A stretch of 64,000 bases of DNA, taken from assembly GCF_034531395.1 (NCBI RefSeq), contig NZ_JARVCO010000007.1:62001-126000 (forward strand). The letters are read 5' to 3'. Both the position numbers and the translations under genes were made by a program. Positions 2,854 to 42,248 of this stretch are shown here, in pieces. Source of the stretch: Pontiella agarivorans. GTDB lineage: Bacteria; Verrucomicrobiota; Kiritimatiellia; Kiritimatiellales; Pontiellaceae. Under the pieces are notes generated by a model that saw nothing but the letters and a program-made list of their open reading frames with translations, did no database searches and was not told where the DNA came from. Each line of letters starts with the position of its first letter. The stretch's first letter is position 1.

Positions 2854-2878
2854 GAAGGGTGCGCCGCGCTTTTATTAA

Positions 2879-3484: not shown

Positions 3485-3522
3485 GCTTATCCTCTCATTT
3501 TAATTCTCATTTTTAACCACTC

Positions 3523-3591
3523 GCTTCGCTGGAGGTCACGGAGTGCGCAGAGGTTTTTCCTCGGTGATACTCCATGCCTCTGTGGTGAATC
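3523..3591. repeat. Dispersed CACGGAG/CACAGAGG-type repeat, degenerate inverted
   Basis: The spacer between carbonic anhydrase and aguB holds GGAGGTCACGGAG, GCGCAGAGG, and then the roughly complementary GCCTCTGTGGTGA. The two arms make a weak inverted repeat. The same sequence type recurs at 43850-43931 next to other genes. It may fold and end transcription, but there is no clear T-run. Confidence 0.5.
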
Positions 3592-11821: not shown

Positions 11822-11846
11822 TTCAAAAGAGAGTATGGAGAAAGCT

Positions 11847-13669: not shown

Positions 13670-13958
13670 TCATGCTCCTTAAGGTGGGATAAAATAGAGG
13701 AGCTGTCCGTGTTGAACACGGATAAACATGGTTTTTCTTCGGGGGAGACGCTTTGCAGAAAGTCACTGGGGAACGACTGCTGTACTGTGCCCCCACTGTC
13801 TCACCTGTGTCTTCAAACCGGGCGCTGATGGCGCAGATTCCAATCCGTGAAAAGGTATATTCGTTGGAAATAAGGAGGTTACGGTGATGGCACAGCCGTT
13901 GCAATAAGAGAGGCACTTACTGAACGAACTTAACATCAATAATCACAGGAGGTGTGTC

Positions 13959-26144: not shown

Positions 26145-27037
26145 TCCGGAACCTCCATGGTTTTTTCCACGTAGGCGCGGACAAACTGTTCTGCTTCTTC
26201 GGCGAAACCTTCCGGAACTTTGTTGGAGAAACGGATGTCGTCGCAACGTTCCAGAAATGAAATGATTGCGGTGTCCTCAAGAACCACAGCAAGTTCTACG
26301 GCGGTTTTTCCAATCATGGGAAGTCCAAAGCGTGCTTCGTGGTAGGTGCGGAAAATGCGGTTGAGTTCATGAATACGTTCGACGGTGTTTTCCGGCAGGT
26401 TTTCCAAGGCCTGGAACGCCGCCTCGTGGGGAAGGGTTACAGCAACTGTTTTCGGTTTGCGCAGGAGATAAATGATGAACGGAATCAGGCTGAGGATGAA
26501 AAGGGAGCCGACCACGGTGTAGATGGAGCGCCGCTTTTTTTCCTGGGAGGGCAGCAGTTCGATGGGGGCGGCGATGTCTCGAATTTCCAACGAATCCGTT
26601 CCTTCGGGAATCAGGGAGGTGATTTCGATGGGGATTGGCTCGGTGGTGATGGAGTCGGTCCCGGCTGACAGTTCCAGAGGCTGAAGGACGGTTTTTCCCG
26701 GAAGGGAGGGGAGAAGCTGCCAGACTCGGCGATACATTTGTTTGCCGTTGGGCAGGGTTTGAACGGGTTCGGTGTATCCTTCACCCAGTGAGAACGGATC
26801 AATCTTGTTTCCAATGTTCGGAAAGGTCGGTTCCGTACCGGCGGGGGTATGAATTTCAAGCATCAGGATAATTTTTCCAGAGCTTGGAAGATTGGTTTCG
26901 CTGAGCGAAACGATGGCGGTCATGGCATGGTCACGGTACTGCTTTGAATAAACAGGTTCCAAATGGGATTGAGGTTTGGTCTGTTGTTCTGAACAACCGA
27001 AAATAAGCAGGGCAATAACGGGTAAAAGTTTTTTCAC
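26141..27037 (-). CDS. Bat-operon lipoprotein with one membrane segment
   Basis: A 298-residue protein that begins with a lipoprotein-type signal (MKKLLPVIALLIFGC, mature start CSEQQTK). A beta-rich extracytoplasmic domain follows (about 35-165), then one hydrophobic segment (about 172-192) and a helical C-terminal region resembling the tails of BatD/DUF4381-type proteins. A lipid-anchored N-terminus combined with an internal membrane segment is unusual. Its place between the DUF58 gene and batA, with 4-base overlaps on both sides, makes it a Bat-system part. Palindrome copies at 26402 (FQALE) and 26875 (LPSSGK) lie within. Confidence 0.65.
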   Translation of the reverse strand: MKKLLPVIALLIFGCSEQQTKPQSHLEPVYSKQYRDHAMTAIVSLSETNLPSSGKIILMLEIHTPAGTEPTFPNIGNKIDPFSLGEGYTEPVQTLPNGKQMYRRVWQLLPSLPGKTVLQPLELSAGTDSITTEPIPIEITSLIPEGTDSLEIRDIAAPIELLPSQEKKRRSIYTVVGSLFILSLIPFIIYLLRKPKTVAVTLPHEAAFQALENLPENTVERIHELNRIFRTYHEARFGLPMIGKTAVELAVVLEDTAIISFLERCDDIRFSNKVPEGFAEEAEQFVRAYVEKTMEVPE

Positions 27038-27924
27038 AGGGTCTGCCTTTCTCCTCGGGTTCGGAAAAAGCGGGCTAGATCGCGTACGTGGTCGCGGTCG
27101 GTGTGGACATCGATCTGGTCGATATTGAGCCGGGTGAACTGCTCTCTGATTTCGAGTTGCCGCGCTTTGGCTGCAGTATTGAATCTTTTACGTGCAGCTG
27201 CACTGGCGGTATCAACGAGAATCTGCTCGCCGGTTTCGGCATCCTGCAGTTCCACGAGCCCGGCGTTGGGAAGTTCACGTTCTCGCGGATCGGTGATGGT
27301 TACGGCAATGAGGTCGTAGTGATAGGCCGCGAGTTTCAGCTGTTTGTCATAATTGGTGTCCTGGAAATCGGAGATGAGAAAAGTGACGCATTGGCGCTTG
27401 ATCATTTTTCCGAGATAGTCGAGCGCGCCGGCAATACTGGTGCCGGTGCCTTTGGGATTAAAACTGAGGATTTCGCGAATGATGCGCAGTACGTGGTGTT
27501 GACCTTTATCGGGGGCGATAAAGCATTCGACTTCATCGGTGAAAATGAGCAGTCCGACCCGGTCGTTGTTTTTGATGGCCGAAAAAGCAAGCATGCCGCA
27601 AATTTCTGCGGCGATTTCATTTTTGGTTTGTTTCATCGATCCGAATGCGCCGGAGGCCGACATATCGACCAGAAAGAAGAGCGCTTGTTCGCGCTCTTCG
27701 ATAAAGCGTTTCACAAAGGGTTTGCCCGTGCGCGCCGTGACGTTCCAGTCGATAGTGCGTACTTCGTCTCCGGGCATGTATTCGCGGACTTCATCGAATT
27801 CCATACCGCGTCCTTTGAAGACGCTTTTATATTCTCCGCCCAGTAGTTCGGTGACGACCTTGCGACTTTTAATGTCGATTTGGCGGACGCGTTTCAGCAG
27901 TTCAGTTTGACGTTGATCGCTCAT
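27034..27924 (-). CDS. DUF58 domain protein of the MoxR/Bat cluster
   Basis: A 296-residue soluble protein. The segment GRGMEFDEVREYMPGDEVRT followed by DWNVTARTGKPFVK is the hallmark of DUF58 proteins, which carry a VWA-like fold with the partial metal motif DMSASGAFGS. DUF58 proteins are nearly always next to a MoxR ATPase and are thought to act with it on envelope or redox-enzyme assembly. ATG at 27924 (MSDQRQTELL) is preferred; the 18 residues before it are low in family resemblance. It overlaps the lipoprotein gene by 4 bases and lies 63 bases after moxR. Confidence 0.88.
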   Translation of the reverse strand: MSDQRQTELLKRVRQIDIKSRKVVTELLGGEYKSVFKGRGMEFDEVREYMPGDEVRTIDWNVTARTGKPFVKRFIEEREQALFFLVDMSASGAFGSMKQTKNEIAAEICGMLAFSAIKNNDRVGLLIFTDEVECFIAPDKGQHHVLRIIREILSFNPKGTGTSIAGALDYLGKMIKRQCVTFLISDFQDTNYDKQLKLAAYHYDLIAVTITDPRERELPNAGLVELQDAETGEQILVDTASAAARKRFNTAAKARQLEIREQFTRLNIDQIDVHTDRDHVRDLARFFRTRGERQTL

Positions 27925-27987
27925 GGATGTGAGACGTGACGACTGAGGCGTGAAAGAAAAACACGACTCATGCAGCACGGGTCTGTA

Positions 27988-28977
27988 TTACGGCACTTCG
28001 ACGGTATCGAGGATTTGTTTGAGGATGTCCTCGGAGGACTTTTCTTCGGCGGCGGCTTCGTAGGTGAGCAGTACGCGGTGGCGGAGCACATCCATGGCGA
28101 CATCTTTTACGTCCTGCGGAACGACATAGCCGCGGCCGTTGAGCATGGCTTTACCGCGAGCGGCGACGGAGAGAAAAATGGTGGCGCGCGGTGAGGCGCC
28201 GTAGCGGATCATATCGGCGCAATCGAGACCGAATTTTTCGGGGTCGCGGGTGGCCTGAACCAGATCGAGAATGTAGTGTTCGAGTTTTTCATCCATAAAG
28301 ACGTCATCAACCAATTTCCGGAGCCGGTTGATATCTTCGATTTGCATGACCGCCTGGATATCAATTTTTACGTCGGTTTTGCCCATGCGTTTCAGGATGC
28401 GGTGTTCTTCATCTTTCGTGGGGTAAACCACGTCGAGTTTGAACATGAAGCGGTCAACCTGAGCTTCGGGGAGGTGATAGGTGCCTTCCTGTTCAACAGG
28501 ATTCTGAGTGGCGAGCACGAGGAACGGTTCGTCGAGTTTATATGTTTCATCGCCGATGGAGACCTGATGTTCCTGCATGGCTTCAAGCAGGGCACTCTGA
28601 ACTTTGGCGGGGGAACGGTTGATTTCGTCGGCGAGAATGATGTTGGCGAAGATCGGACCTTTGTGGGGTGTGAACTCGCTGGTTTTCGGATTATACATCA
28701 TGGTTCCGAGCAGGTCGCCGGGTAAAAGGTCGGGCGTGAACTGAATGCGGTTAAAGCCGGCATGCAGCGTCTGCGAAAGGGTGGTGACGGCGAGGGTTTT
28801 CGCGAGTCCGGGAATGCCTTCGATCAGCACATGGCCGTTGCAGAGCAGGGCGAGGAGGAGCGCTTCGATGAGATCCTCCTGACCGATGATCACTTTGCCC
28901 ACTTCATCGCGGACCTTCTGGAGCACTTCACTTTCAGCCTGATAGCGCTCGTTCATCTTAACTATATCGTCATGCAT
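27988..28977 (-). CDS. moxR: MoxR family AAA+ ATPase
   Basis: A 329-residue chaperone-like ATPase. Walker A is GIPGLAKT, Walker B is LADEINRSPAKVQ, and sensor regions include ATQNPVEQEGTYHLPEAQ, all typical of MoxR. The C-terminal lid domain runs from about residue 225. It is the first gene of the minus-strand Bat operon, upstream of the DUF58 and VWA genes it is expected to remodel. ATG at 28977 (MHDDIVKMN) is chosen over one five codons upstream, because GGCAAAG there fits poorly as a leader peptide; the choice is not certain. The promoter should lie in the 168 bases up to the UspA gene. Confidence 0.93.
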   Translation of the reverse strand: MHDDIVKMNERYQAESEVLQKVRDEVGKVIIGQEDLIEALLLALLCNGHVLIEGIPGLAKTLAVTTLSQTLHAGFNRIQFTPDLLPGDLLGTMMYNPKTSEFTPHKGPIFANIILADEINRSPAKVQSALLEAMQEHQVSIGDETYKLDEPFLVLATQNPVEQEGTYHLPEAQVDRFMFKLDVVYPTKDEEHRILKRMGKTDVKIDIQAVMQIEDINRLRKLVDDVFMDEKLEHYILDLVQATRDPEKFGLDCADMIRYGASPRATIFLSVAARGKAMLNGRGYVVPQDVKDVAMDVLRHRVLLTYEAAAEEKSSEDILKQILDTVEVP

Positions 28978-29160
28978 ATCTTTGCCTTTCAAAAAAGAAA
29001 CGGGGGAATATAGCCCCGTTTATCAGCTGGAACACTAATAAAACGCCCTGAAAAACGGAGCTTGGACAATCCCTTTGGTTAGAGGCATGTGTTATGAAAT
29101 TATGAGTGAAATGCTAAGATAACGGGGCGGAATCGGAGTCTTAAGATTTATTAAGGAACA

Positions 29161-29712: not shown

Positions 29713-29925
29713 TTAGACGTTTTTTCCGTATTGAGGTTCAATGCCAAGTTTATCCATACGGTAGCGCAGAATGCGGCGGGTGGTGCCGAGGTGTCTGGCG
29801 GCCTGGGTATGGACACCGTTGCATTTTTCCAGTGCCTCATGTATCAGGCTGCGCTCAAAATCGCCGACGGCCTTTTCAAGGTTGATCGGAGTCTCCGGGG
29901 GCCGGACGCTGGCGCAGCGGTTCAT
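29713..29925 (-). CDS. Stand-alone Fis-type helix-turn-helix protein
   Basis: A 70-residue protein consisting almost wholly of the C-terminal DNA-binding domain of NtrC-type regulators: FERSLIHEALEKCNGVHTQAARHLGTTRRILRYRMDKLGI. The receiver and sigma-54 AAA+ domains that normally precede this domain are absent. The start codon shares ATGA with the stop of the sensor kinase upstream, so it is translationally coupled. It could be a small Fis-like DNA-binding protein or the remnant of a full regulator. The reading frame is intact and the helix-turn-helix looks undamaged, which favours a working protein. Confidence 0.72.
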   Translation of the reverse strand: MNRCASVRPPETPINLEKAVGDFERSLIHEALEKCNGVHTQAARHLGTTRRILRYRMDKLGIEPQYGKNV

Positions 29926-31913
29926 ACTTCGTCTTCCAGTGCCGGGAAAAGGATGGTGATGGTTGTTCCGCCGGAGCTGGTATCGATGTCGATTTGACCG
30001 TTGTGATCGATCACGGCTCGTTTTGCAATCGGCAGGCCCAGCCCGAGGCCGCGGGCTTTGATGGTGGAGAATGGCGAGAATACTTTGTCGCGAATGGATT
30101 CGTCGATTCCGGAGCCGTTGTCAGTGATGATCAGGTAGATGCTGCCGGTCTGCTTATCCGGAGAGCGACCCTTCACGGTTACATTAACGCGCGAGCCCGG
30201 TTTGTTGGCCAGATTTTCGGCGGCGTTTTTCAGGAGATGATATACGCCTTCTTCGAGGGATGTCGGAGCGCCGTAGACCATCAGCGAAGAGTCATCGGCC
30301 GAAAGATGAATCTTAAGGTTGTCGTGGTCGAGTTCGTTCTGGATGCGGGTGACGGCGTGTTCAATCGGTTTGCGGATATCCACAGGCTGGAAGGCCGGTT
30401 TGGGCGGGTTGGCAAATTCGTTGATTTTATCAACAATCTGGTTGAGCCGGTCAACTTCATGATTGACCTCTTTGCTGAATTCAGCGCGGAAATCGGGATC
30501 TTCGTAACGTTCCGGAAGCATTTGTGAAAAAGTTTTAATGGCCACGAGCGGGTTGCGTATTTCGTGGCTCATGCTGGAGGCGAGTTCGTTCCAGAAAGAG
30601 GCGCGTTCAAGCTGCTCTTCTTTTTCCTGCAGCAGTTTTGCGCCGGTAATATCGCGGAGCATCATCATGGCTCCGACGCAACCTGCGTTGTCTGTGAGGC
30701 ACCGGGTCTCGGCAGATACGGTAAGTTTGGTTCGGTTGTCGGTCCATTCAGTAACGTCGTGCGCGGTCTGGTTTCCGATGGTTCTTCGGAACAAGTCTGC
30801 AATACGGGAACCGAGTGTTTCAACCCGCCGGCCGATGATGTCTGTTTCTTCCGGTTTGAGTATTTCTCGTGCGCTGGAGTTGAACCAGCGTATGGTGGCT
30901 TTTTCATCGCACGCCACAATGCCGAAGGGGATTGAGTGCAGGACCGTTTCCGCGAGAGCTTTCTGGAGGGCGGTTTCTTCGTATTGGAACGCTTTTTCAA
31001 GGGTGGTGGATATATGGTCAGCAAGTCCGGTGAGATCTTCGAGGTCGGCGACCTCGAAAGGAATGCCGGTGGAGCGCTGACCAACGAAGATCCAGCCCTT
31101 AATTCGGCCGGCGGCATAAATGGGAATGATGATCTCACCACCGAGGGAGTCGAGCATCTGCTTGAGCATGGCCCGTTCCTGGGGATCGGCAATGTTCTCA
31201 AGGGTTTTTCGCGATACCAGATGGGTATTCATTTCCAGCCATCGAATGAACGCATCGTGCGGATGGATGCTCAGTTGTTCTGTGGCGGCTAGGCAGCGGG
31301 TGCCTGCCTGGAATATATAGTCGGCCTGCGGGTCGGGCTGAATGAAGATACCGGCCCGCGACACCCGTGCGGTGGCCACAAGGCCTTCCACAACACTTTC
31401 GAACAGGGCATCAACGTTGTCGAAGTTGCGCTGGGCTTTGGAGAAATTCTGAAGTGGTGCTGAAAAAAAACTGCGCGGTTGTGGCCGCTGCTCGCTTTTA
31501 CGGGCATTCAGCTTGGTGAGCTCTTCTTCCAGAATGCGGGTTTTCTGACGGAGCATCTGGCATTCAATGGCCTGTTTCAGCAGGGCTTGTAGTGCACGGC
31601 GTTCCGGCTCGAAAGAGGTTCTGGCGAAGGGCTCGAGCAATTCGGCTGCGAGCATAGGGTCGGAGCGGTCGGTTCCGATAACGATAATGATGGTGGTTGG
31701 CCGCTCGCGGCGCAGCATGGAGAGGACATCGAGACAGTTGGGTGCCCGTAGATCCGCCAGCAGTACGGTATCGCCGAACTGTTGAAACCATTGTTCGAGT
31801 TCAGTTTGTTCTTCCAGCTGCTGGATCGCCGTGATGGAGGAGGCCACGCGGATGAAGCGCGAGGTCAGTTCTTCGTCGCGGGAATAAAGAAGGCTGGAGG
31901 GGAGTGTTCTCAT
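29922..31913 (-). CDS. Cytoplasmic sensor histidine kinase (pseudo-receiver, GAF, PAS, HisKA, HATPase)
   Basis: A 663-residue kinase without membrane segments. Residues 1-115 look like a receiver fold with D54 in LLADLRAP but without the acidic pair near the N-terminus, so probably a pseudo-receiver. A coiled coil (115-140), a GAF domain (about 165-305), a PAS domain (about 320-430), the HisKA helix with H450 in SMSHEIRNPLVAIKTF, and an HATPase domain (to the end, with NAAENLAN, DNGSGID and GLGLGLPIAK) follow. It resembles NtrB/AtoS-type kinases. The start overlaps the 837-residue kinase by 4 bases and the stop overlaps the Fis-type gene by 4 bases. Confidence 0.92.
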   Translation of the reverse strand: MRTLPSSLLYSRDEELTSRFIRVASSITAIQQLEEQTELEQWFQQFGDTVLLADLRAPNCLDVLSMLRRERPTTIIIVIGTDRSDPMLAAELLEPFARTSFEPERRALQALLKQAIECQMLRQKTRILEEELTKLNARKSEQRPQPRSFFSAPLQNFSKAQRNFDNVDALFESVVEGLVATARVSRAGIFIQPDPQADYIFQAGTRCLAATEQLSIHPHDAFIRWLEMNTHLVSRKTLENIADPQERAMLKQMLDSLGGEIIIPIYAAGRIKGWIFVGQRSTGIPFEVADLEDLTGLADHISTTLEKAFQYEETALQKALAETVLHSIPFGIVACDEKATIRWFNSSAREILKPEETDIIGRRVETLGSRIADLFRRTIGNQTAHDVTEWTDNRTKLTVSAETRCLTDNAGCVGAMMMLRDITGAKLLQEKEEQLERASFWNELASSMSHEIRNPLVAIKTFSQMLPERYEDPDFRAEFSKEVNHEVDRLNQIVDKINEFANPPKPAFQPVDIRKPIEHAVTRIQNELDHDNLKIHLSADDSSLMVYGAPTSLEEGVYHLLKNAAENLANKPGSRVNVTVKGRSPDKQTGSIYLIITDNGSGIDESIRDKVFSPFSTIKARGLGLGLPIAKRAVIDHNGQIDIDTSSGGTTITILFPALEDEV

Positions 31914-34423
31914 CCGGCAACTTTCTCCTCAAGCAACGGCATGTAGAGATAAAATGTTGTGCCTCTTCCCGGTTCGCTGTCGACTTCAATGACGCCGTGA
32001 TGCTCGCTGATGATTCCGTGCGCAACGGAGAGCCCCATTCCGGTACCCTCACTTTTGCTGGTAAAGAACGGATCGAAGATTTTCTGGAGATTCTCGCGGG
32101 CAATGCCTTTGCCGTTATCAGTGATTTGAATTCGGATACATTTCCGGGTAACGGCGCGGTCCGGTGTATCTCCGTTGGCAAAGCGATAGGCGCAGTTGAG
32201 GGTGCCGACGGTCAGGGTTCCATTTTCACCGATGGCATCGATGGCATTCAAAGCAAGGTTGATGAAGGCCTGTGAAAGCAGCTTGGCATCCCCAAAAATA
32301 TCCGATTTATCCGCTTTGCAGTTGTTTTTCAGTTTGATGTTGTTCTGGGACAGTTGCTCATGAATCAGCTTGAGAGTCTGATCAACGGTCTCCTGCACAT
32401 CCATGGGGACAAGGTGAGGCTTTGCGGGTTTTGAAAAACTGAGCAGTTCGTTAACGATACCATCAATACGCTCCACCTCATGGGCAACCAGCGAGGAGAA
32501 ATCCTTGCGGAAATCTTCGTCGTTATAGCGGCGGGGCAACAGCTGGGTGAAGGTTTTAATGGTTACGAGCGGATTTTTTATTTCATGTGCCATACCGGCG
32601 GCCAGCGTGCCTACACTGGACAGCTGGTCGGACCGGCGCACCTGTTCTTCCAGTGCCTTGAGTTCTGTGATGTCGGTGAAGACCAGCAGTGCTCCCATAG
32701 GTTTGCCGTCATGCCCAAAAAGAAAGGCGGAGCTTATACGGATATATTTTGGGAAATCCTCGCTGTCTTCGTCAGGATAAAGCGTTGCGTCAATGTTGCG
32801 GACACCGTTTTCATTCTCGAGCGTGACTTCGAGAGCCAGATGAATTTCCCGTGGCAATACGGCAATATTTTCGCCGATGGCATTTTTTTCACCGATGCCG
32901 GTGATTTTCTGTGCTTCGTTGTTAAAGAGTGTGATTTTGCGGTTCGGGCTCGCTACCACAACGCCGCTGGCCAGCTGATCCAGCATGATCTCATTCTGGA
33001 TCTTGCTATCCTGCATGGCGGTATAAAGCCGCGCATTTTCAAGAGCAACAGCAAACTGATTGCAGAGGATTTGAAGGGTATCCTGTTCTATTTTGTCATA
33101 GATCTGATTTTTGTTTTTTGGAGCGAGTAAAATCAGGCCAATGATCTGGGATTTTGAATATATTCCTGCGGCGACAGAGACCTCATAACAATTTAATGAT
33201 TTTATTGCTGAGCATATTTCTGAAGTTTGCCGGATACGGGTTAAATGGTCAGAACTGATCGGTTCGTGGATCTTTTTCAGTAATGATGTTATGGGGTTGT
33301 CTGCGGGGAGCTGAAATTTTAATTCTGGCGATATATCAGTTTCCACATATTGATTATTTTGTTTGATGAGAATATGCAGTTTATCTGTTTTGTATGCCTC
33401 AGAAAGTAAAGCGTAAAAGTGTTGTAGTAAAGCGGCACTCGTAGTAACCGATTGGAATATTTCTCCAGCTTCTTTCAGGACACTTTGAACATTGAAAATA
33501 TTAAAGGGTGTAAATATTTTTTCCGTAGCCCTGAGGAAGCGCTGTCGCGCGGGCAGCATGCAGAAAGCAACTGTTAGAGTTGAAATAAAATGACTGGGTC
33601 CAGCCAGACCGATCCCTAATAGTTCAAATAGCGTGCTCGCCACGTAAAATGTCAAATAATACACTATCCCCAAGAAAACAACGACCAGCGCATATGCAGA
33701 TATACGCTGAAGAAGAGCTGATACAGTAAGAATACGGTGTACTGAGATGCCATATGCCACAATCCCGGAAACAGTGAGAACACTTCCTGCGTTGGCAACA
33801 GGTACCGAATTAGCAGATTGGGTAATGAGTCCGACGATAGTTCCTAAAAAAATTCCCACTACTAGTCCGGAAAGACAGGCGAAGATTAAGAAGTCCAGCT
33901 CGAGACGTTTTGATCCTTGAAGGGTTTTTCTGTCTTTTATTACATTAATACTTAAAGCAAAAATTGATCCCAGCATGTATATTAAGAAGAAGATAAAGGC
34001 TGGCCCGTAGTTGGGCTTGGCAATATTAATACTATTCTCAGGGTTGGGAAATTCAACCGATTCTGTAAAGGCAGGGAGGAAGCATAGTGCGACTGCGATA
34101 AAGTTTAGAAGGAGTTGATATTTGCATCGGTTGCTGATTTGTCTTCTAGATGCATTTGGAAATTTAATGGCCAATCTTAGTAACTGAAATGATGTTGGTA
34201 AGCATGATGAGATAGCTGAGGCTAGGTTTATATGAAAAATAGCTTGCGATTCTTCTGAAGAGTTTAATATTAGAATGTTGGCACACAGCCAAAGGACCAT
34301 AAGAAATGCGGAAAGCAAGAAGGCCTGATTCACTCGACGATGTCTATTGGTGAAATAAACAATAACCCCTAGACAGAGATTGGCTGATAGTGCCAAAAAT
34401 AAAATAAAGGTAAGTATAATCAT
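31910..34423 (-). CDS. Membrane sensor histidine kinase (multi-TM, GAF, PAS, HisKA, HATPase)
   Basis: An 837-residue kinase. About eight hydrophobic segments fill residues 1-290, a sensor layout like the 7TM/PrsK-type kinases. A GAF domain (about 310-470), a PAS domain (about 475-590), the HisKA helix with H613 in GMAHEIKNPLVTIKTF, and an HATPase domain (NLALNAIDAIG, DNGKGIA, GTGMGLSVAHG) follow. The kinase core is strikingly like that of the next gene (both read NPLV-x-IKTF-x-QxLPxRY), suggesting a duplication. The DNA for roughly the first 470 residues is clearly more AT-rich than the rest. It begins 1 base after the ketoacyl synthase stop. Confidence 0.92.
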   Translation of the reverse strand: MIILTFILFLALSANLCLGVIVYFTNRHRRVNQAFLLSAFLMVLWLCANILILNSSEESQAIFHINLASAISSCLPTSFQLLRLAIKFPNASRRQISNRCKYQLLLNFIAVALCFLPAFTESVEFPNPENSINIAKPNYGPAFIFFLIYMLGSIFALSINVIKDRKTLQGSKRLELDFLIFACLSGLVVGIFLGTIVGLITQSANSVPVANAGSVLTVSGIVAYGISVHRILTVSALLQRISAYALVVVFLGIVYYLTFYVASTLFELLGIGLAGPSHFISTLTVAFCMLPARQRFLRATEKIFTPFNIFNVQSVLKEAGEIFQSVTTSAALLQHFYALLSEAYKTDKLHILIKQNNQYVETDISPELKFQLPADNPITSLLKKIHEPISSDHLTRIRQTSEICSAIKSLNCYEVSVAAGIYSKSQIIGLILLAPKNKNQIYDKIEQDTLQILCNQFAVALENARLYTAMQDSKIQNEIMLDQLASGVVVASPNRKITLFNNEAQKITGIGEKNAIGENIAVLPREIHLALEVTLENENGVRNIDATLYPDEDSEDFPKYIRISSAFLFGHDGKPMGALLVFTDITELKALEEQVRRSDQLSSVGTLAAGMAHEIKNPLVTIKTFTQLLPRRYNDEDFRKDFSSLVAHEVERIDGIVNELLSFSKPAKPHLVPMDVQETVDQTLKLIHEQLSQNNIKLKNNCKADKSDIFGDAKLLSQAFINLALNAIDAIGENGTLTVGTLNCAYRFANGDTPDRAVTRKCIRIQITDNGKGIARENLQKIFDPFFTSKSEGTGMGLSVAHGIISEHHGVIEVDSEPGRGTTFYLYMPLLEEKVAG

Positions 34424-34424
34424 G

Positions 34425-35657
34425 CTATACTTTCCCTAATATCAGGGAACTGTTTACCCCCCCGGTTCCATGGCTATTGATCAGCGAAAAATCGGCAACC
34501 GTTAATCGTTCTGATCTTGCTACAAAGTCAAGGTCGCACATTGGATCAGGAGTTTCCAAATTGGTTGTCGGCGGAATAGTGCTGTTCTTTAAGCTTAAGG
34601 CGGTCATGATCGACTGTATTGCCCCTCCTGCCGCTAAAGGATTCCCTGTTGATCCTTTTATTGAGGTTGTCGGAATGTGTTGAGCTTGAATGCCAAATAC
34701 GTTTTTGATGGCCTGCACTTCGGAAATGTCTAAAAAGGGATCGCTGGACCCGTGGGCATTTATGCTGTTTATATCCGAAGGTAGTATAGAGGAGTTTTCT
34801 ATTGCCATTTTCATGCTTCGTTCAAGTCCGACTGCCGGTAATGAGTTGATATTGCTTGAGGCCCCATATCCTAAGATTTCTGCATATGGCGATTTCCCCC
34901 GGTTTAGAGCATGATCATATGATTCGAGCACAAGCACTCCCGAACCTTCCGCGATCACACCGCCTGATCGCATAGAGTCGAATGGTCTGCTCATTTTTTC
35001 AGGGGGTAGGTTCGTGTTGTCGGCGAGCATGCCGGCAAACCCAAGTCCTGTAACGACCGACGGTATAATAACTGCATCCGTTCCTCCAACAATAGCAGTG
35101 TCACAAATCCCTTCGCGGATTAAGCGCGCACCTTCGGCAACTGCATCTAATCCACCGGTGCAGCTGTTGGATATGACTGAAATTTTTGTCTCTATGCCCA
35201 GCATAGAACTGATAAAACTTGGAGCGATAACATGAACGCATGCTGAAACAGTAGGCAGGCCTTTCGTAATGCCTTTGTCGACTAAACGACGAGTATGTTG
35301 TTCGACTAAATCAAGCCCGCCTAAACTGATCCCTAAAACGATGGGAAGAGAATCAATCTCCTTCAGGTTCTCAGAGTCTAATTTAGCATCTTTTAGGGCC
35401 ATTACTGTTGCTGCAGCTGCCAATTGAGTATTTCGGCTTTGTCGTTTGGGTTTTAATGATCGATCGATAAAGTCTTCAGGTTTGAATCCGGTAACTTCTC
35501 CTGCAATTTTCCAAGGAATGTCTGAGGCATCAAACTGGGTGATGGGCCCGATGCCGGATTCGCCGGCGAGGAGAGAGTTCCAGAAGGCGTCTTTGCCAAT
35601 GCCATTGGCGGCGAGCACTCCAACGCCGGTTACTACCACTCTGTTTTTGCCGATCAC
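34425..35657 (-). CDS. Divergent beta-ketoacyl synthase (FabF-like) with Cys-His-Asn site
   Basis: A 410-residue condensing enzyme of the KAS I/II fold. The nucleophile is C166 in ISNSCTGG (usual FabF wording is T-A-C-A-T-G), the first His is H302 in NAHGSSDP, and Lys is K334. The position of the second catalytic His (normally G-H-x-x-G-A-A-G) reads GNPLAAGG, so Asn339 replaces it. The C-terminal glycine loop is NSHGTGGVN rather than the usual NSFGFGGTN. It may still extend acyl chains, but the site differs from housekeeping FabF. It heads an operon with two sensor kinases and lies divergent from a FadL-like gene. DNA is AT-rich compared with most of the window. Confidence 0.85.
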   Translation of the reverse strand: MIGKNRVVVTGVGVLAANGIGKDAFWNSLLAGESGIGPITQFDASDIPWKIAGEVTGFKPEDFIDRSLKPKRQSRNTQLAAAATVMALKDAKLDSENLKEIDSLPIVLGISLGGLDLVEQHTRRLVDKGITKGLPTVSACVHVIAPSFISSMLGIETKISVISNSCTGGLDAVAEGARLIREGICDTAIVGGTDAVIIPSVVTGLGFAGMLADNTNLPPEKMSRPFDSMRSGGVIAEGSGVLVLESYDHALNRGKSPYAEILGYGASSNINSLPAVGLERSMKMAIENSSILPSDINSINAHGSSDPFLDISEVQAIKNVFGIQAQHIPTTSIKGSTGNPLAAGGAIQSIMTALSLKNSTIPPTTNLETPDPMCDLDFVARSERLTVADFSLINSHGTGGVNSSLILGKV

Positions 35658-35899
35658 GCGTTTCTGTCCCCTTATCTAGATTTAAGCGTATCCTTATGTA
35701 GCGGAATCGGGTGTCGGCCGCAATCATAGATGATAAGTCTGTATATATATTGGTGTACAATTTTGTACATCAAATATCAATATGTAGTATATATCAAGTG
35801 TTTTTATACAACCTGTAGGTAAAAAATATAGGTGACCAATGGCATATCAAATGCTACAAACAGCCCGGTTTTTTAATGGCCATTTATAGAGGGGTACAT
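35658..35899. promoter_or_regulatory. Divergent AT-rich promoter region
   Basis: This spacer separates the ketoacyl synthase operon (minus) from the FadL-like operon (plus), so it must drive both. It is the most AT-rich non-coding DNA in the window, with runs such as GTATATATATTGG and AGTATATATCAAG. A near-palindrome in its middle is listed separately. Exact -35/-10 boxes cannot be fixed by eye. Confidence 0.6.
35754..35769. promoter_or_regulatory. Candidate operator TGTACA-ATTT-TGTACA
   Basis: Two TGTACA hexamers, each self-complementary, stand 4 bases apart in the middle of the divergent promoter. The 16-bp element is close to a full palindrome and has the size of a dimeric regulator site. 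The coupled Fis-type HTH protein is one possible ligand, by position only. Confidence 0.4.
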
Positions 35900-37108
35900 A
35901 TGAACAAGAATCACAAGCTATTTGTGTCTGGGATCTGCGCTGGGCTTTTTGTGTTGTCTCGCGCTGTTATGGCGGACGGCTACCGCAATCCGCCGCCGAC
36001 CGCCGAGGGGATTGCAAAATCGGGCGTGAATTCGGTGTGGGTGGATGATGCCTCGGCGATTTCCTATAACCCGGCCAATCTGGCCTTTCAGACCAATCAG
36101 TCTTTTGTGCTTTCGACAACCTTTGCCCGCACGGAAAACACATATCAGAACCCGTTGGCACCTAATGCTTTTGAGTCGGATGGGGAGTGGAATTATCTGC
36201 CAAATATATACTACGCTCTACCTTTGGGGGATCGGTGCTCGGTGGGCTTAGGGATTAATACTCCCTATGGGCAGGGGCTCTCTTGGGATAAAGATGACTT
36301 CGCACCATTTGTCACTGCGCCGGGTGTTTTTGTGCCCTACGAAGCTCAGATGATGATGATCAATTTCAATCCAACGGTTGCGGCAAAACTAACTGACACT
36401 CTGGCGCTTGGAGCCGGTCTGAATGTAGCTTATTCCCAACTTACCCTTAAAGCTTTGCAGGGGACTCCGGGGCCGACTGTTGAGGTTGAAGGTGAGGGTG
36501 ACGGCTGGGGAGTTGGGGCAAACCTTGGTTTGACCTGGAATCCTGTGGAAGGGCAGCGTTTGACGCTGACCTACCGAAACCAAATGCAGATCGACTATGA
36601 GGGTGATTTTAAAGTAGACGGTGCGGGAGCCGGAACCTTTGAAACTGAAATCAAGCTACCCAACATCATTGGTGTTGGGTATGGATTTGCCTTGAACGAC
36701 AAAGTGCAGATTGAAGCATTGGTGGAGTGGCTGCAGTGGTCTTTGAATGATTCGCAGAAGCTTGTGGCGGGAGCTCCGGCCCCTGATCTTGAAAACAACT
36801 GGGATGACACGTTCACCTTCGGTATTGGCGGCAGCTGGCAGGCGCTGGATTCGTTGGTTGTTCGTGCGGGCTATGCCTTCATTCCGAGCCCGATTCCAGA
36901 TGAAACCATTACGCCGCTATTGCCGGATGCGGATCGTCATGCCGTCAGTTTCGGCTTGGGGTATACCCGCGGCGCTCACACGATTGATCTGGCTTATACG
37001 GTTAGTATTTATGAAGATCGCAGTGCTCCGGTTTCCAATCTGAGCGGAGCGGGCATTTATGATATTGATTCCAACCTGATTGGTCTGACATACTCTATTG
37101 CGTTTTAG
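35900..37108 (+). CDS. FadL/OMPP1-type outer-membrane transport protein
   Basis: A 402-residue protein with a signal peptide (MNKNHKLFVSGICAGLFVLS to about residue 24). The mature N-terminus is DGYRNPPPTAEG, and an early stretch, DDASAISYNPANLAF, is the family signature near the plug. The rest alternates polar and nonpolar residues as in a 14-strand beta-barrel and ends in an aromatic residue (YSIAF). FadL proteins let long-chain fatty acids or other hydrophobic compounds cross the outer membrane. ATG at 35900 follows AGAGGGGTAC. The receiver/kinase gene follows 9 bases later. Its place opposite the ketoacyl synthase operon suggests a shared lipid-related role. Confidence 0.88.
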   Translation: MNKNHKLFVSGICAGLFVLSRAVMADGYRNPPPTAEGIAKSGVNSVWVDDASAISYNPANLAFQTNQSFVLSTTFARTENTYQNPLAPNAFESDGEWNYLPNIYYALPLGDRCSVGLGINTPYGQGLSWDKDDFAPFVTAPGVFVPYEAQMMMINFNPTVAAKLTDTLALGAGLNVAYSQLTLKALQGTPGPTVEVEGEGDGWGVGANLGLTWNPVEGQRLTLTYRNQMQIDYEGDFKVDGAGAGTFETEIKLPNIIGVGYGFALNDKVQIEALVEWLQWSLNDSQKLVAGAPAPDLENNWDDTFTFGIGGSWQALDSLVVRAGYAFIPSPIPDETITPLLPDADRHAVSFGLGYTRGAHTIDLAYTVSIYEDRSAPVSNLSGAGIYDIDSNLIGLTYSIAF

Positions 37109-37117
37109 GGAATTCTC

Positions 37118-38308
37118 ATGATCGCTGATTGCAAGGACAAAAAAGGTAAGGTACTGGTCATTGATGATGAACGCGGACCGCGTGAAAGTCTGCGTATGGT
37201 GCTGAAGTATGATTACGATATGGTGCTCGCGGAGCGGGTCGATGCCGGAATTAATGCTCTGCGAGAACATAATCCGGATCTGGTCATCATGGATATCCGC
37301 ATGCCTGAAAAAAGCGGTATTGAAGGGTTGCAAGAGATCCGCGAGATCAATCCGAATGTCTCGATTGTGATGCTCACGGGTTATGGAGATCTAGAGACGG
37401 CGCAGCAGGCTATCCGTTACGGAGCAAATGATTATCTCCAAAAGCCGTTTGATACCGATGAGATTCAGGCGGTAGTTAAAAAATATGTGGACCGAACCAA
37501 GCTGAATTCCCGCAAAAAACAGGCGCAGGAAGAGCTGAATAAAATGACGCAGTCACTCAGCCGCGAAGTGGGAAAGACGAACAAGCTGACTTCGCTCGGA
37601 GCGGCCTCTTCCGAGCTGGTTCGTGACTTGCGCAATCCGCTGACGATCATTCGCGGTTATCTGGATCTGCTGAATTATGAACTGAAGGAAAAGCGCGATT
37701 CCACTTCGGATGAAATGAGTGAGTATCTTGATCAGATCGAACGGAATGTGGAACGCTGTGCAGAACTGGTGGAATCCTGGCGCGCACTGGGCCGATTCGA
37801 TTTTTCCCAGATGCAACGGGTGAATTTGCCGAAGCTGATGAACGATTGTTTTCGGGATGCGGCTGCACACTCTGAAATCTCTTTTTCGGTTCAGGTTGAT
37901 GGTGCTGAAGATCAGTATGAAATGTTGGGTGAGCGACTGCAGATCAAGCGGGCGCTGCAGAATCTGATCGATAATGCGGTTACCGCAGTTGATAGCGAGT
38001 TTGCTCCGGGCATTACGGTTGAATTTTCTCTTTCGAACTCAGACATCGATCTGAAAGTGAAAGATAACGGATGCGGTGTGGACACTTCCACACTGCGTTG
38101 GATCTTTGAACCTTTTGATAATACTGCGACCATTGAAAAAGGGGCAGGCCTAGGTCTGTTCATCACCAAGAAGGTGCTTGAAGAGCACCGCGGGTCGCTC
38201 GTCTTTGAGAGTCGTGTTGGAGAGGGCAGTATTGTATCGGTCCGCGTACCTCAGGCCCACACGGCTCTCGGCTATTTTTCCAGTCCTGCTTCACTGGCAC
38301 AGGCCTGA
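37118..38308 (+). CDS. Receiver domain fused to a kinase-like module lacking the phospho-accepting His
   Basis: A 396-residue soluble protein. The receiver (about 10-125) has all key residues: D16/D17, D59 in VIMDIRMP, T87 and K109. A coiled-coil linker leads to a HisKA-like helix that reads SSELVRDLRNPLTIIRG, where the usual H-E-I-R-N-P-L has Arg (R169) in place of His. The HATPase domain looks whole, with DNAVTAVD, DNGCGVD and GAGLGLFITKK. So it may bind ATP without autophosphorylating in the normal way, acting as a phosphate sink, phosphatase or allosteric partner of the two kinases across the promoter. It sits between the FadL-like and flavoenzyme genes with gaps of 9 and 8 bases. Confidence 0.88.
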   Translation: MIADCKDKKGKVLVIDDERGPRESLRMVLKYDYDMVLAERVDAGINALREHNPDLVIMDIRMPEKSGIEGLQEIREINPNVSIVMLTGYGDLETAQQAIRYGANDYLQKPFDTDEIQAVVKKYVDRTKLNSRKKQAQEELNKMTQSLSREVGKTNKLTSLGAASSELVRDLRNPLTIIRGYLDLLNYELKEKRDSTSDEMSEYLDQIERNVERCAELVESWRALGRFDFSQMQRVNLPKLMNDCFRDAAAHSEISFSVQVDGAEDQYEMLGERLQIKRALQNLIDNAVTAVDSEFAPGITVEFSLSNSDIDLKVKDNGCGVDTSTLRWIFEPFDNTATIEKGAGLGLFITKKVLEEHRGSLVFESRVGEGSIVSVRVPQAHTALGYFSSPASLAQA

Positions 38309-38316
38309 TCTGACTC

Positions 38317-39921
38317 ATGTCTGTACATTCCGCCATCGAAGCTTGGGAAGCCCAATTGGGTGCGGATGCGGTTATTCACGATATCCAGGCCTTGGAAAAG
38401 TATACGCGCAGCGTGTGTGCCTCTGAGCGACAGGTTGTTGCCGTCCTCAAACCGGTAAGTCACGAGCAGGTCGAACAGATTATCGAGGCGGCAAATGCCC
38501 ATCGCGTTCCGCTCTATCCCATCAGTCGGGGCAAGCAGTGGGGTATGGGTTCGAAACTTCCAGTTCGCGACGGTGTTGCAATTGTCGACCTTTCAGGACT
38601 GGACCGAATCCTTGAAATCAACGAGCAGTTTCACTATGCCGTCGTCGAGCCCGGTGTGACCCAGCGACAGCTGCTGGATCATATCGCTGAAAATCAGCTT
38701 GATCTGATGCTCAATGTTACAGGGTCAACCTCCGATACCAGCCTCATCGGAAATGCAATGGACCGCGGCGTCGGGTATTTTGATACGCGGGCGCATGGAA
38801 TCTCCAACATGCGGATTGTTCTGGGGAACGGAGCAACCATACAGACCGGATTCGGCCATTTTGAACATGCACAAACGCAGAATCTTTACAGGCATGGGGT
38901 CGGTCCCTCGCTCGATGGGTTGTTTCCGCAGGGAAACTTCGGTATTGTTACGTCCGCCTGCATCGATCTGATGCCTAAGCCTGAAGAGCATCTGGCCGTC
39001 ATTGTAAAAATTGATGTGGAGGAGAAACTGCCTTTACTTGTTGATACGCTCAAAGCTCTTCGTTCCCGGGGGATTTTTACCACGATTGCGCATATCGGAA
39101 ACCGGGAGCGTTCCTATATTACCCTTGCGCCGTTGTTGTACGAACAACTGTTGAAAAACGGTGAGCCGGAAAGCGAGGCCACGCGCAGTAAAACGATTCG
39201 GCTTCTGGAAGATGGCGGCTTCGGGCCGTGGAGTGCTGCGATCGGCGTGCTTGGAACCAAAGCGCAGCTCAAGTTAGCGCGACGTGAGCTTAAAAAAGCA
39301 TTTTCAGGATTTGCAAAGACCATGTTTCTGAATGATGCATTGGTTGCTTCGGCAGAAAAATATTTGTCAAAATTTTCGTTTTTTCCTGCGCTGAAAACGC
39401 AACTGATGATGTTACGGGCCGTGAAACCGGTTTACGGTTACACCGGCGGCCGTGCAACCGATAAATCGCTGTGTTCGGTTTTCTGGGCGGCTGGCGATTT
39501 TCAGCGATTGGAAGAGCCGAACCCCGACGATTCTGATTCCGGTATTCTGTTCTGCCTGCCCATTTTTCCCGCCTCTGGAAAAGAAGTGGCTGAGGGGGTT
39601 GAAGAAACCCGAAAAATCTTTTCGGCGCATGGCTTCGAAGCGGCCATCACGGTTAATCTGATGGATACTAAGGCGATGGAGGGGGTTGTCAGCCTTTCCT
39701 TCAACCGGACGGATAAAAAGCAGACTGCCCGGGCGCAGGCCTGTATTCAGGCGATGGAAACCCGATATATGGAAATGGGCTATCCGCCCTACCGCGTCGG
39801 GATCAATTCGATGCACCAGGTCGTACATGAAAATGATCCGTTCTGGCAAACCATCCGCGATCTAAAATCAGCACTCGATCCCAATGGAATCATAGCCCCC
39901 GGCCGATACAACCTTATTTAG
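38317..39921 (+). CDS. VAO/4-cresol dehydrogenase-type FAD-linked oxidase
   Basis: A 534-residue flavoenzyme of the vanillyl-alcohol oxidase superfamily. The FAD-binding N-terminal half shows LYPISRGKQWGMG, VEPGVTQRQLLDH, GSTSDTSLIGNAMDRGVGYFDTR and GNFGIVTSACIDLMP, and the C-terminal cap domain ends in DPNGIIAPGRYNL. The pattern is closest to the 4-cresol dehydrogenase/vanillyl-alcohol oxidase branch, which oxidises para-substituted phenols. The superfamily also holds alkyl-dihydroxyacetone-phosphate synthase, of interest because a PlsY-like acyltransferase follows. The substrate cannot be told by eye. It starts 8 bases after the receiver/kinase gene. A palindrome near-copy (38383) is read as IQALE. 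Confidence 0.82.
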   Translation: MSVHSAIEAWEAQLGADAVIHDIQALEKYTRSVCASERQVVAVLKPVSHEQVEQIIEAANAHRVPLYPISRGKQWGMGSKLPVRDGVAIVDLSGLDRILEINEQFHYAVVEPGVTQRQLLDHIAENQLDLMLNVTGSTSDTSLIGNAMDRGVGYFDTRAHGISNMRIVLGNGATIQTGFGHFEHAQTQNLYRHGVGPSLDGLFPQGNFGIVTSACIDLMPKPEEHLAVIVKIDVEEKLPLLVDTLKALRSRGIFTTIAHIGNRERSYITLAPLLYEQLLKNGEPESEATRSKTIRLLEDGGFGPWSAAIGVLGTKAQLKLARRELKKAFSGFAKTMFLNDALVASAEKYLSKFSFFPALKTQLMMLRAVKPVYGYTGGRATDKSLCSVFWAAGDFQRLEEPNPDDSDSGILFCLPIFPASGKEVAEGVEETRKIFSAHGFEAAITVNLMDTKAMEGVVSLSFNRTDKKQTARAQACIQAMETRYMEMGYPPYRVGINSMHQVVHENDPFWQTIRDLKSALDPNGIIAPGRYNLI

Positions 39922-40034
39922 CTTTTCCTGAACGGCAAAACTCCCGTCAGTCCATGCAAGGTTGGCAATTCGTATTGTAAAAGATTCAGTTCCTGCTAAT
40001 CTGCTAACAGCATGGAAACGCTGGGGAGTGTTGT

Positions 40035-40625
40035 ATGACGGGGAGGGGTGCCATCTGTATTCTGATTGCCTATCTGCTTGGTGGAATCTGTAGCGGATAT
40101 TGCCCGGTTAGCCTGAAGACGAGGACCGATATCTGTGAGGTCGGAAGCGGGAGAGTCGGAGCACGCAATGTCGGTCGGATTCTGGGCCGGCCGGGTTTTT
40201 CGGCTGCCTTGGCGGCAGATGCGCTGAAAGGCTTTGTCGCTGTTCTTCTTGCGCAAAATTCGGAACTTCCCGAAGCAGTGGTTTTTCTGGTTCTGGTGTC
40301 AGTTGTTGCGGGGCATGTCTGGCCGGTTTTTATTCAATTTCGCGGGGGGCGGGGTATTGCCCCGGCGATCGGAGCTTATCTTGCGTTCGACGTGATAATT
40401 GCCCTGCTTCCTCTCGGTCTTGCCCTCTTGTTGATGCTTTTCCGCCAGAGTTTTATCCTCAGCGGTCTGGCCGCTTTTCTGATTCTTCCGAGCGTGGCTT
40501 ATGCTCTTGTAATGCCCGCCCATTGTGTTGCTGCGCTTACAACGGTTGCGGCGATTATACTTTTTACTCACCGCGACCGGATTCGGAAGGAATTTGCGGC
40601 GGCCCAGCCGCGGAAGGAGGCATAA
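40035..40625 (+). CDS. PlsY-like glycerol-3-phosphate acyltransferase family protein
   Basis: A 196-residue membrane protein with about five hydrophobic segments. The three PlsY motifs are recognisable: GSGRVGARNVGRILG (usual S-G-N-x-G-A-T-N), DALKGF, and GHVWPVFIQFRGGRG (usual G-H-x-F-P-V-F-x-x-F-x-G-G-K-G). Some key positions differ (R for N or T, R for K), so this is probably a divergent member rather than the housekeeping enzyme. PlsY moves an acyl group from acyl-phosphate to glycerol-3-phosphate in the inner membrane. It lies 113 bases after the flavoenzyme gene, and its stop directly adjoins the next start. Confidence 0.8.
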   Translation: MTGRGAICILIAYLLGGICSGYCPVSLKTRTDICEVGSGRVGARNVGRILGRPGFSAALAADALKGFVAVLLAQNSELPEAVVFLVLVSVVAGHVWPVFIQFRGGRGIAPAIGAYLAFDVIIALLPLGLALLLMLFRQSFILSGLAAFLILPSVAYALVMPAHCVAALTTVAAIILFTHRDRIRKEFAAAQPRKEA

Positions 40626-42248
40626 ATGGGACTACTCGCCGGATTTATCTATAAGGTTGCACGGGAAGACTGGGAAATAGAGGCGGTTGACGCACTCAAT
40701 TATAAAACATTCGTGGAAGAAATCCCCCAGCATGAGGCCAATCCGGAGCGTAAGCTGAGAGATAGGTTTCATGAGGAAAACACCTATATAATCTGTGTTC
40801 ATGAAGATCAGCGCGTGCTGGCCGGAATGATTGCCTTCCGTAATAAGCGTCCGTTTTCACTCGATAAAAAACTGGAGAATCTGGATTCCTATTTGCCGCC
40901 GGACCGCTCGCTCTGTGAAATCCGTTTGTTGGCGGTTGAAGAGGAATTCCGTTATACCCGGATCTCGCAGGGCCTGATTGCGACGCTGGTGCAGCATGCG
41001 ATTGACTGCGGGCACGATCTGGCCGTCATTTCCGGTACTGTGCGGCAAATCAAACTCTATAAATTCCTAGGGTTCATTTCATTCGGTCCGCTGGTCGGTA
41101 TCGAGAAGGCGCAGTATCAGCCGATGTATCTCACGCTCGAAGCATACAAAGGTCTGAAAACGCGCTCCCGTTCTTTCGCGATAGATGAGCCGGAGCTCGC
41201 CACCGATGATACCATGCTATTCAATTTTCTGCCCGGTCCGGTAGATTTCGGGAAACAGGTGGTGGAGGTTTATAAAGAAAAACCGAGTTCGCACCGCGGG
41301 AATGATTTTGTAAACGATTTTCAGAACAGCCGGAAACTGCTGTGCGAGCTGGTCGGATCCCGGCAGGTGCAGATTCTGATGGGACCGGGAACACTCGCCA
41401 ATGATGCGGTAGCGGGCCAGTTATCGCTGTTGTGTTCCACCGGTCTGATTCTGGTGAGCGGCGAATTCGGCCATCGCCTCACCAAAAATGCCAACGGGGC
41501 GAAGCTGTTTTTCCATACTCTGGAAATCCCGGAAGGGGAATCCTTCTCCCGAAAAATGATCGAACAGCAGTTTAAGCAACATCCTGAAATCGACTGGGTT
41601 TGGGCGACGCATTGCGAAACGTCAACGGGAGTTCTGCATGATATCGAAATGCTTCAGAGCGTTTGTGAAGCCCACGAAGCAAAGCTGTGTCTGGACTGCA
41701 TCAGTTCACTCGGCACAGTTCCGGTGGACCTTTCTGGGGTCTATCTGGCCTCGGGAACCAGTGGAAAAGGGCTGGCTTCCATTTCCGGACTCTGCATGGT
41801 GTTTCATAATCACGATCTGCAGCCGGAACCGGATGATCTGCCGTGTGTACTGGATCTGGGAATTTATCAGAAACAGGCGGGAATTCCGTTTACCATTCAA
41901 TCCAATCTGGTCTATGCCCTGCTCGCAGCACTGCAATCACACGACTGGAAAAAACGTTTTGCGGATGTGCGCGACTGGTCTGCCAGTATCCGGCGGAAAC
42001 TGGCCGAAATCGACGCCCCGATTCTGGCACCGGATTCCTGTGCGATGCCGGCCGTGGTTACCATTGCTTTGCCGGAAATGCACTCCTCGGAGCGTATCGG
42101 TGATAAACTAAAAGAGCATGGTGTGTTAATCAGTTATCGTAGCGACTACCTGCTCGAACGGAACTGGATTCAAGCCTGCATGATGGGGGCTGAGCATAAA
42201 CCAGCAGAGAAATTTATTCGTCTGCTCAGGAAGGAGCTCGGGGCTTAG
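40626..42248 (+). CDS. Fusion of GNAT/acyl-HSL-synthase-like acyltransferase and class V aminotransferase
   Basis: A 540-residue two-domain protein. Residues about 10-165 have a GNAT-type fold resembling the FeeM/LuxI-like N-acyl amino acid synthases (CEIRLLAVEEEFRYTRISQG and IKLYKFLGF). Residues about 195-535 form a PLP enzyme of aminotransferase class V, with FLPGPVDF, SSHRG, Asp in LCLDCISS (D357) and the PLP lysine K381 in SGTSGKGLAS. One half may make an amine and the other acylate it; this is an inference from the fusion. It starts immediately after the PlsY-like gene and ends in a convergent 4-base overlap with the next gene. Confidence 0.83.
   Translation: MGLLAGFIYKVAREDWEIEAVDALNYKTFVEEIPQHEANPERKLRDRFHEENTYIICVHEDQRVLAGMIAFRNKRPFSLDKKLENLDSYLPPDRSLCEIRLLAVEEEFRYTRISQGLIATLVQHAIDCGHDLAVISGTVRQIKLYKFLGFISFGPLVGIEKAQYQPMYLTLEAYKGLKTRSRSFAIDEPELATDDTMLFNFLPGPVDFGKQVVEVYKEKPSSHRGNDFVNDFQNSRKLLCELVGSRQVQILMGPGTLANDAVAGQLSLLCSTGLILVSGEFGHRLTKNANGAKLFFHTLEIPEGESFSRKMIEQQFKQHPEIDWVWATHCETSTGVLHDIEMLQSVCEAHEAKLCLDCISSLGTVPVDLSGVYLASGTSGKGLASISGLCMVFHNHDLQPEPDDLPCVLDLGIYQKQAGIPFTIQSNLVYALLAALQSHDWKKRFADVRDWSASIRRKLAEIDAPILAPDSCAMPAVVTIALPEMHSSERIGDKLKEHGVLISYRSDYLLERNWIQACMMGAEHKPAEKFIRLLRKELGA

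Follow-up and report, generated by a model that had tools for sequence, protein, structure and literature searches.

Which of the nine genes clustered around an AT-rich divergent region in Pontiella agarivorans belong together, and what do they do? The locus lies at positions 29713-42248 of a 64-kb stretch of contig NZ_JARVCO010000007.1 (the window; genome assembly, 4.4 Mb). It had been proposed in an earlier note, made from the sequence alone, as a kinase-controlled locus that builds an acyl chain, makes an amine and joins the two. An open reading frame check and a Pfam search confirmed all nine genes with the order, strands and spacing given there (minus arm, overlaps of 4 and 4 bases and then a gap of 1 base; plus arm, gaps of 9, 8, 113, and 0 bases), and Pfam agreed with every assignment. 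Comparison with loci (L-numbers) from other genomes (G-numbers) divided the nine genes into a conserved unit of seven and a separate mobile cassette of two. We put at about even the chance that the seven genes are a polymorphic, pherotype-like synthase-sensor signaling unit for a hydrophobic molecule derived from a ketosynthase, with a sigma-54-dependent output.

The minus arm of the conserved unit encodes a 70-amino-acid Fis-type helix-turn-helix (HTH) protein (29713-29925; Pfam HTH_8), a soluble histidine kinase (HK1; 29922-31913), a seven-transmembrane histidine kinase (7TM HK; 31910-34423; HisKA_7TM), and a FabF-fold ketoacyl synthase (KAS; 34425-35657; ketoacyl-synt), which is the candidate synthase. 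HK1 consists of a divergent receiver-like N-terminus followed by GAF, PAS, HisKA (with its His), and HATPase domains, the last three of which were matched by Pfam. The plus arm encodes a FadL-type outer-membrane channel (35900-37108; Toluene_X), a receiver plus HisKA/HATPase protein (37118-38308; Response_reg), and a flavoenzyme of the VAO/4-cresol dehydrogenase type (38317-39921; FAD_binding_4). The FadL reading frame is open from 35876, and a ribosome site and a predicted signal peptide, MNKNHKLFVSGICAGLFVLSRAVMADG, suggest 35900 as the true start. The region between the arms is AT rich, as had been claimed (GC, 0.353, against a window mean of 0.529 in 2445-base stretches), and the conserved locus is arranged around this one divergent region.

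The layout, with the HTH protein or an NtrC-type activator, HK1, the 7TM HK, and KAS divergent from FadL, the receiver/kinase, and VAO, recurs in many families of the class at about 33 to 51% protein identity, and its conservation is therefore far beyond chance. A search with VAO gave matches in 52 of 240 genomes of the class and led to loci free of the cassette. Outside the family Pontiellaceae, FadL and the receiver/kinase adjoin VAO in 20 of 26 VAO loci (L126 to L151); among the other six, three have VAO without the rest, one lacks the upstream FadL (L147), and two break off too early. KAS follows divergently in 15 of the 26 and on the same strand in L132. Neighbor clustering of the VAO loci of the class revealed no further common gene. 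In one genus (L126 to L128), VAO proteins 60 to 62% identical to that of the window occur without the rest of the locus.

The last two genes of the plus arm behaved differently. They encode a PlsY-like acyltransferase (40035-40625; G3P_acyltransf) and a fusion of a FeeM-type GNAT domain with a PhnW-like aminotransferase (GNAT/AT; 40626-42248; FeeM and Aminotran_5). They are present in most Pontiella loci and stand beside the conserved unit in Pontiellaceae only. Neither occurs in the 20 class loci of other families in which FadL, the receiver/kinase, and VAO are present, and in L120 (Pontiella) VAO is directly followed by the gene that normally lies 3' of GNAT/AT. In the other direction, one scan of species genomes found at least 566 coding loci of the GNAT/AT fusion family, and the 80 listed included records from Verrucomicrobia, Planctomycetes, Desulfobacterota-type bacteria, Dadabacteria, Chloroflexi, Gammaproteobacteria, and Bacillota; a PlsY gene directly precedes the fusion in most of the loci listed. 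The expectation that at least four of the genes would co-occur in relatives thus held for the seven from HTH to VAO and failed for PlsY and GNAT/AT. Since the cassette and the remaining genes each occur without the other, the proposed joining pathway does not describe what the conserved unit does. Adjacency, gaps of 0 to 113 bases, and the presence of the cassette in most Pontiella loci speak for a nine-gene pathway, but it is already contradicted for the class, and we give it next to no chance.

Between the window and its sister locus, L125 (G348, a one-contig genome), identity is 95% for the housekeeping FabF, 93% for HK1, and 95% for the receiver/kinase. DNA similarity across the locus is 81 to 87% and is interrupted twice, at 33103-35549 and at 38978-39975. 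The first tract comprises the 7TM and GAF sensor half of the 7TM HK (33104-34423) and nearly all of KAS, and its breakpoint is the boundary between the sensor and the conserved kinase half (31910-33103). The second comprises the cap half of VAO (from about 38979) and is the sole exchange tract separate from the KAS-sensor pair. Within the 7TM HK, the kinase domain is 89% identical between the two loci and the 7TM part 27%; KAS is 45% identical, and in VAO the cap half stands at 47% against 83% for the N-terminal half. Compared with the sister species, the sensor half of the 7TM HK is 21 to 39% identical and the kinase half 72 to 98%. The pair L134 and L148, from another family, replicates the pattern (kinase, 76%; 7TM part, 33%; KAS, 50%). 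The GC content of the sensor/KAS tract, 0.428 against the mean of 0.529, is nearly the lowest in the window. The FadL gene of L125 (11910-13132) matched as two separate pieces, suggestive of a frameshift.

KAS and the sensor half also vary together. In a partial Mantel test over 21 loci, with the kinase and VAO N-terminal domains as background, KAS identity correlated with 7TM identity (r = 0.47, P = 0.0002). FadL (r = 0.01) and HK1 were uncorrelated with KAS in the same set, and we rejected both as members of the covarying set. The VAO cap is clearly coupled to the sensor within Pontiellaceae (r = 0.65, P = 0.002). In the tree of the kinase half, Pontiellaceae group together with support of 1.0. 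The 7TM-half and KAS trees both split the family, placing part of it with L148 and L133 from other families and placing L023 and L125 near L138. When types were assigned by eye from the trees, KAS and sensor types matched in 18 of 22 loci (permutation P = 2e-5, with relatedness ignored). Matched types are found on both sides of family boundaries; the kinase half that belongs to the same polypeptide as the sensor tracks species. The locus thus combines a hypervariable synthase and sensor with conserved kinases and regulators, and its matched types are incongruent with species, in genes that are adjacent. By analogy it resembles a pherotype system; we draw the likeness without claiming membership. 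That KAS and sensor types are exchanged together strengthens the earlier suggestion that the kinases sense the product.

KAS is FabF-like over its full length (Z score, 64.8; root mean square deviation, 1.6 over 402 residues in a structure model), and its sequence and NCBIfam matches go to FabF. Compared with FabF, the beta-ketoacyl-acyl carrier protein (ACP) synthase II whose residue roles we took from PMC7138838, it keeps the nucleophilic Cys (Cys166), the first His (His302), and the Lys (Lys334), all invariant in our alignment. The second catalytic His is lost: FabF His340 corresponds to Asn, Ser, or Cys in 20 of 20 loci, and the C-H-H triad is absent. The Phe just before the GFGG gate, FabF Phe398, is replaced by an invariant His (His396), and the gate residue is variable. 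The other KAS of the genome is canonical. Given the lost His and the C-H-N triad shared with PpyS (see below), a non-decarboxylative condensation or an acyl transfer is plausible. Second KAS-like genes in G360, G226, G375, G417, and G372 have no other locus gene beside them.

The VAO-type enzyme, a two-domain flavoprotein, is homologous to members of the VAO/4-cresol dehydrogenase family over both the FAD-binding and cap domains (E value, about 1e-58). Phenol binding in this family involves a Tyr-Arg pair, a further Tyr, and a C-terminal Arg. The Tyr-Arg pair is kept, as is the C-terminal Arg in the window protein; unlike in the family, the first phenol-binding Tyr (Tyr95) is replaced by Met, Leu, Phe, or Ile, leaving the phenolate-binding set incomplete, and the locus encodes no partner cytochrome. 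Since the position of VAO His422 is Ile, Leu, or Met, FAD is probably not bound covalently. A methyltransferase occupies the position expected for VAO in L191, and an extra O-methyltransferase is present in L129 and L140, which points to a tailoring step.

Regulation was examined in 35 loci, which are related, so that the counts are not fully independent, although the sites persist between families. A sigma-54 -24/-12 element (TGGCAYRNNNNTTGCW, at most one mismatch) directly precedes FadL in 19 of the 35 loci against 0.11 expected, as estimated from the remaining sequence of those loci. Upstream of it, a palindrome of the type TGTACA-N4-TGTACA (at most two mismatches) is present in 16 of 35 loci against 0.23 expected. 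In the window the predicted promoter, TGGCATATCAAATGCT (35840-35855, plus strand), precedes the FadL-receiver/kinase-VAO genes, and the palindrome, TGTACAATTTTGTACA (35754-35769), starts 86 bases before it. The palindrome is a probable binding site of the NtrC-type activator or HTH protein. The same scan gave no convincing sigma-54 site before KAS. The exact window palindrome has no second copy in the genome, which contains a single further perfect TGTACA-N4-TGTACA site; a wider regulon was rejected on this basis. Elsewhere in the window, at 13888-13903, lies a perfect sigma-54 consensus, TGGCACAGCCGTTGCA.

Relatives encode, after HK1, an NtrC-type activator with receiver, sigma-54 AAA, and Fis-type HTH domains. 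The sister-genus locus L172 has lost the AAA part and keeps a receiver-HTH intermediate, and Pontiella keeps the HTH only, with its recognition stretch unchanged (GTTRRIL-YRM-KL). By this comparison, the 70-amino-acid protein is a remnant of the activator that has lost its receiver and AAA+ domains. With two rpoN genes and nine strong sigma-54 activators encoded in the genome, another activator could serve the Pontiella promoter; alternatively, the HTH protein may now only modulate it. In the receiver/kinase, the phosphoacceptor His is replaced by Arg in Pontiellaceae (VRDLRNPL). The earlier label of pseudo-kinase therefore fits this family; it does not fit most relatives outside it, which keep the His (VHDLRNPL-like).

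These observations suggest the following model. KAS would join acyl groups from the acyl-ACP pool of the cell into a small hydrophobic molecule, which the VAO-type enzyme would tailor, with a methyltransferase adding to or replacing this step in some relatives. FadL may move the molecule across the outer membrane, and the 7TM HK would recognize it and, with HK1, drive the NtrC-type activator through a putative phosphorelay. Bound to TGTACA-N4-TGTACA, the activator would switch on the sigma-54 promoter of FadL, the receiver/kinase, and VAO. Synthase and sensing domain would form matched types that are exchanged jointly between species, as pherotypes are, and the molecule may be used from cell to cell. 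Carried further, the model would define a new class of quorum sensing, in which rebuilt FabF-derived ketosynthases make polymorphic lipid-like autoinducers that are read by cognate 7TM HKs, with sigma-54 output and pherotypes shared across families. We regard this extension as possible but on balance doubtful.

Several results weigh against a synthase-sensor signaling unit. Across the class, the coupling of VAO cap and sensor is weak (r = 0.14, P = 0.03, in a set without L125), and in L118 and L120 the sensor is of type I but KAS of type II. Pontiella retains the promoter but not the AAA domain of the activator, a sigma-54 site is recognizable in only about half of the loci, and GAFTSA, GAFTHA, or GAFTNA replaces GAFTGA in four of seven relatives' activators (L174, L175, L180, and L181). 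The locus contains no ACP, reductase, or exporter. In addition, KAS and the sensor are adjacent; because one recombination event can carry both, linkage explains part of the congruence and alone could give it. Such exchange could be neutral, with no functional pairing, if the tracts mark a hot spot of recombination or if selection on KAS and the sensor is relaxed; the GC dip over the tract would fit this. Set against it are the invariance of the KAS catalytic residues, a breakpoint placed at the sensor/kinase boundary, the second, separate tract in the VAO cap half between the window and L125, and the congruence of types across families, and we consider a purely neutral origin very improbable.

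Covariation would also be expected of a sensor and enzymes that deal with an external compound, which again counts against the signaling model. In that case FadL might admit a hydrophobic or aromatic compound, VAO and KAS would convert it, and the kinases would sense it; the types would correspond to the compounds of each species. FadL-family channels are reported to import monoaromatic and polycyclic hydrocarbons (PMC7728783, PMC11837497), and VAO belongs to a family that includes 4-cresol dehydrogenase. A ketosynthase is biosynthetic, however, and sits in the sensor operon rather than in the induced one; FadL, the first protein to meet such a compound, does not covary with KAS or the sensor; the first phenol-binding Tyr is lost from VAO; and neighbor clustering found no other conserved catabolic gene near the locus. 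We think this explanation unlikely. Rather unlikely, in our judgment, is a self-monitored pathway for a product other than a signal, such as a membrane lipid, a pigment, or an antibiotic, in which the kinase would sense the product within the producing cell to tune its supply and the types would follow product chemistry. KAS, VAO, and the methyltransferases do look biosynthetic, and product feedback would couple sensor and synthase too; but the induced operon holds only FadL, the receiver/kinase, and VAO, a lone KAS lacking partner enzymes seems meager for making a bulk lipid, and matched types shared across families are typical of signaling or antagonism and not of structural lipids.

For the synthase-sensor signaling unit, partial parallels exist. 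ComQXPA of Bacillus and agr of Staphylococcus likewise place enzyme and signal genes beside a multi-transmembrane sensor kinase and keep the variable parts as types; unlike our locus, with a ketosynthase in the signal-gene position and a sigma-54 output, they have peptide signals and regulators of the LuxR or LytTR type. In ComQXPA the N-terminus of the sensor is variable, its cytoplasmic half is conserved, and the regulator is the least variable part (PMC4008528). The seven genes show the same pattern, in that synthase and sensor vary and kinase and regulator are conserved, and a polymorphic synthase-sensor signaling unit is the simplest reading of them. In the Lqs/Cqs (alpha-hydroxyketone) and Rpf (diffusible signal factor) systems, the signal is small and lipophilic and the synthase gene adjoins that of a multi-transmembrane histidine kinase, as it does here; their synthases differ, being a pyridoxal phosphate enzyme and a crotonase, respectively, and we know of no FadL, VAO, or sigma-54 activator in them. 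PpyS stands on a ketosynthase branch apart and has a catalytic Glu, and its signal is received by a cytoplasmic LuxR-type protein, in contrast to the FabF-type sequence and fold and the membrane kinase found here. Like our candidate, PpyS is a ketosynthase with a C-H-N triad, and it makes the photopyrone quorum-sensing signal of Photorhabdus (PMC4578411). A sigma-54 two-component system of the NtrC type would have a -24/-12 promoter with an upstream palindrome at the target operon, as here, and a receiver-AAA-HTH activator beside the kinase, as in the relatives; the window has the HTH only. For the N-acyl-homoserine lactones of rhizobia, we know of no locus that combines synthase, FadL, and sensor kinase. 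The handling of a long-chain signal by a FadL-family channel, proposed here, does have a counterpart there, with different chemistry, in that such a channel is reported to modulate an extracellular long-chain N-acyl-homoserine lactone (PMC9938287).

A literature search, with subscription journals mostly outside its reach, found no description of the gene set, in agreement with the earlier note, or of ketosynthase-plus-kinase signaling in the phylum. If the signaling model is right, a class for which we found no communication system described would have one, with a synthase type that has, to our knowledge, no precedent as a signal maker. In that case the loci would also be a naturally matched series of ketosynthases and membrane sensors, useful for studying how 7TM kinases read lipid-like molecules and how specificity for a signal arises in evolution. 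Should the molecule turn out to have no signaling role, the paired types would still offer a direct route to what these sensor kinases detect.

The function of the cassette is a separate matter. The glycerol-3-phosphate pocket of PlsY (Ser35, Arg45, Lys104, His177, and Asn180, as given in PMC5700162) is largely preserved across the family. The window protein has Arg at the equivalents of Lys104 and Asn180, and Thr41 is Arg in 35 of 47 aligned family members. GNAT/AT matched the FeeM family of N-acyl amino acid synthases with 35.4 bits (curated cutoff, 27), and by sequence and structure model its aminotransferase part is nearest to 2-aminoethylphosphonate transaminase. It is speculation, with a slim chance of being right, that the product is an O-acyl, N-acyl amino analogue of phosphatidic acid. 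Within the same reach of journals, the literature search returned no description of a PlsY/aminotransferase lipid cassette. KAS, VAO, PlsY, and GNAT/AT had no match among PADLOC defense families, and the cassette had no other common neighbor among the loci listed. In six loci (L075, at 302-3826, and five others), a fused protein of MFS (major facilitator superfamily) transporter, PlsC-type acyltransferase, and AMP-ligase parts precedes PlsY, and this is the most promising candidate for a neighbor. In L124 (Pontiella), GNAT/AT was partly matched (11655-12617) and no PlsY was found; the cassette may be decaying there. Downstream of the minus arm, at 25113-28992, genes read as a MoxR-type ATPase, a DUF58-like protein, and von Willebrand-type proteins stand in a row.

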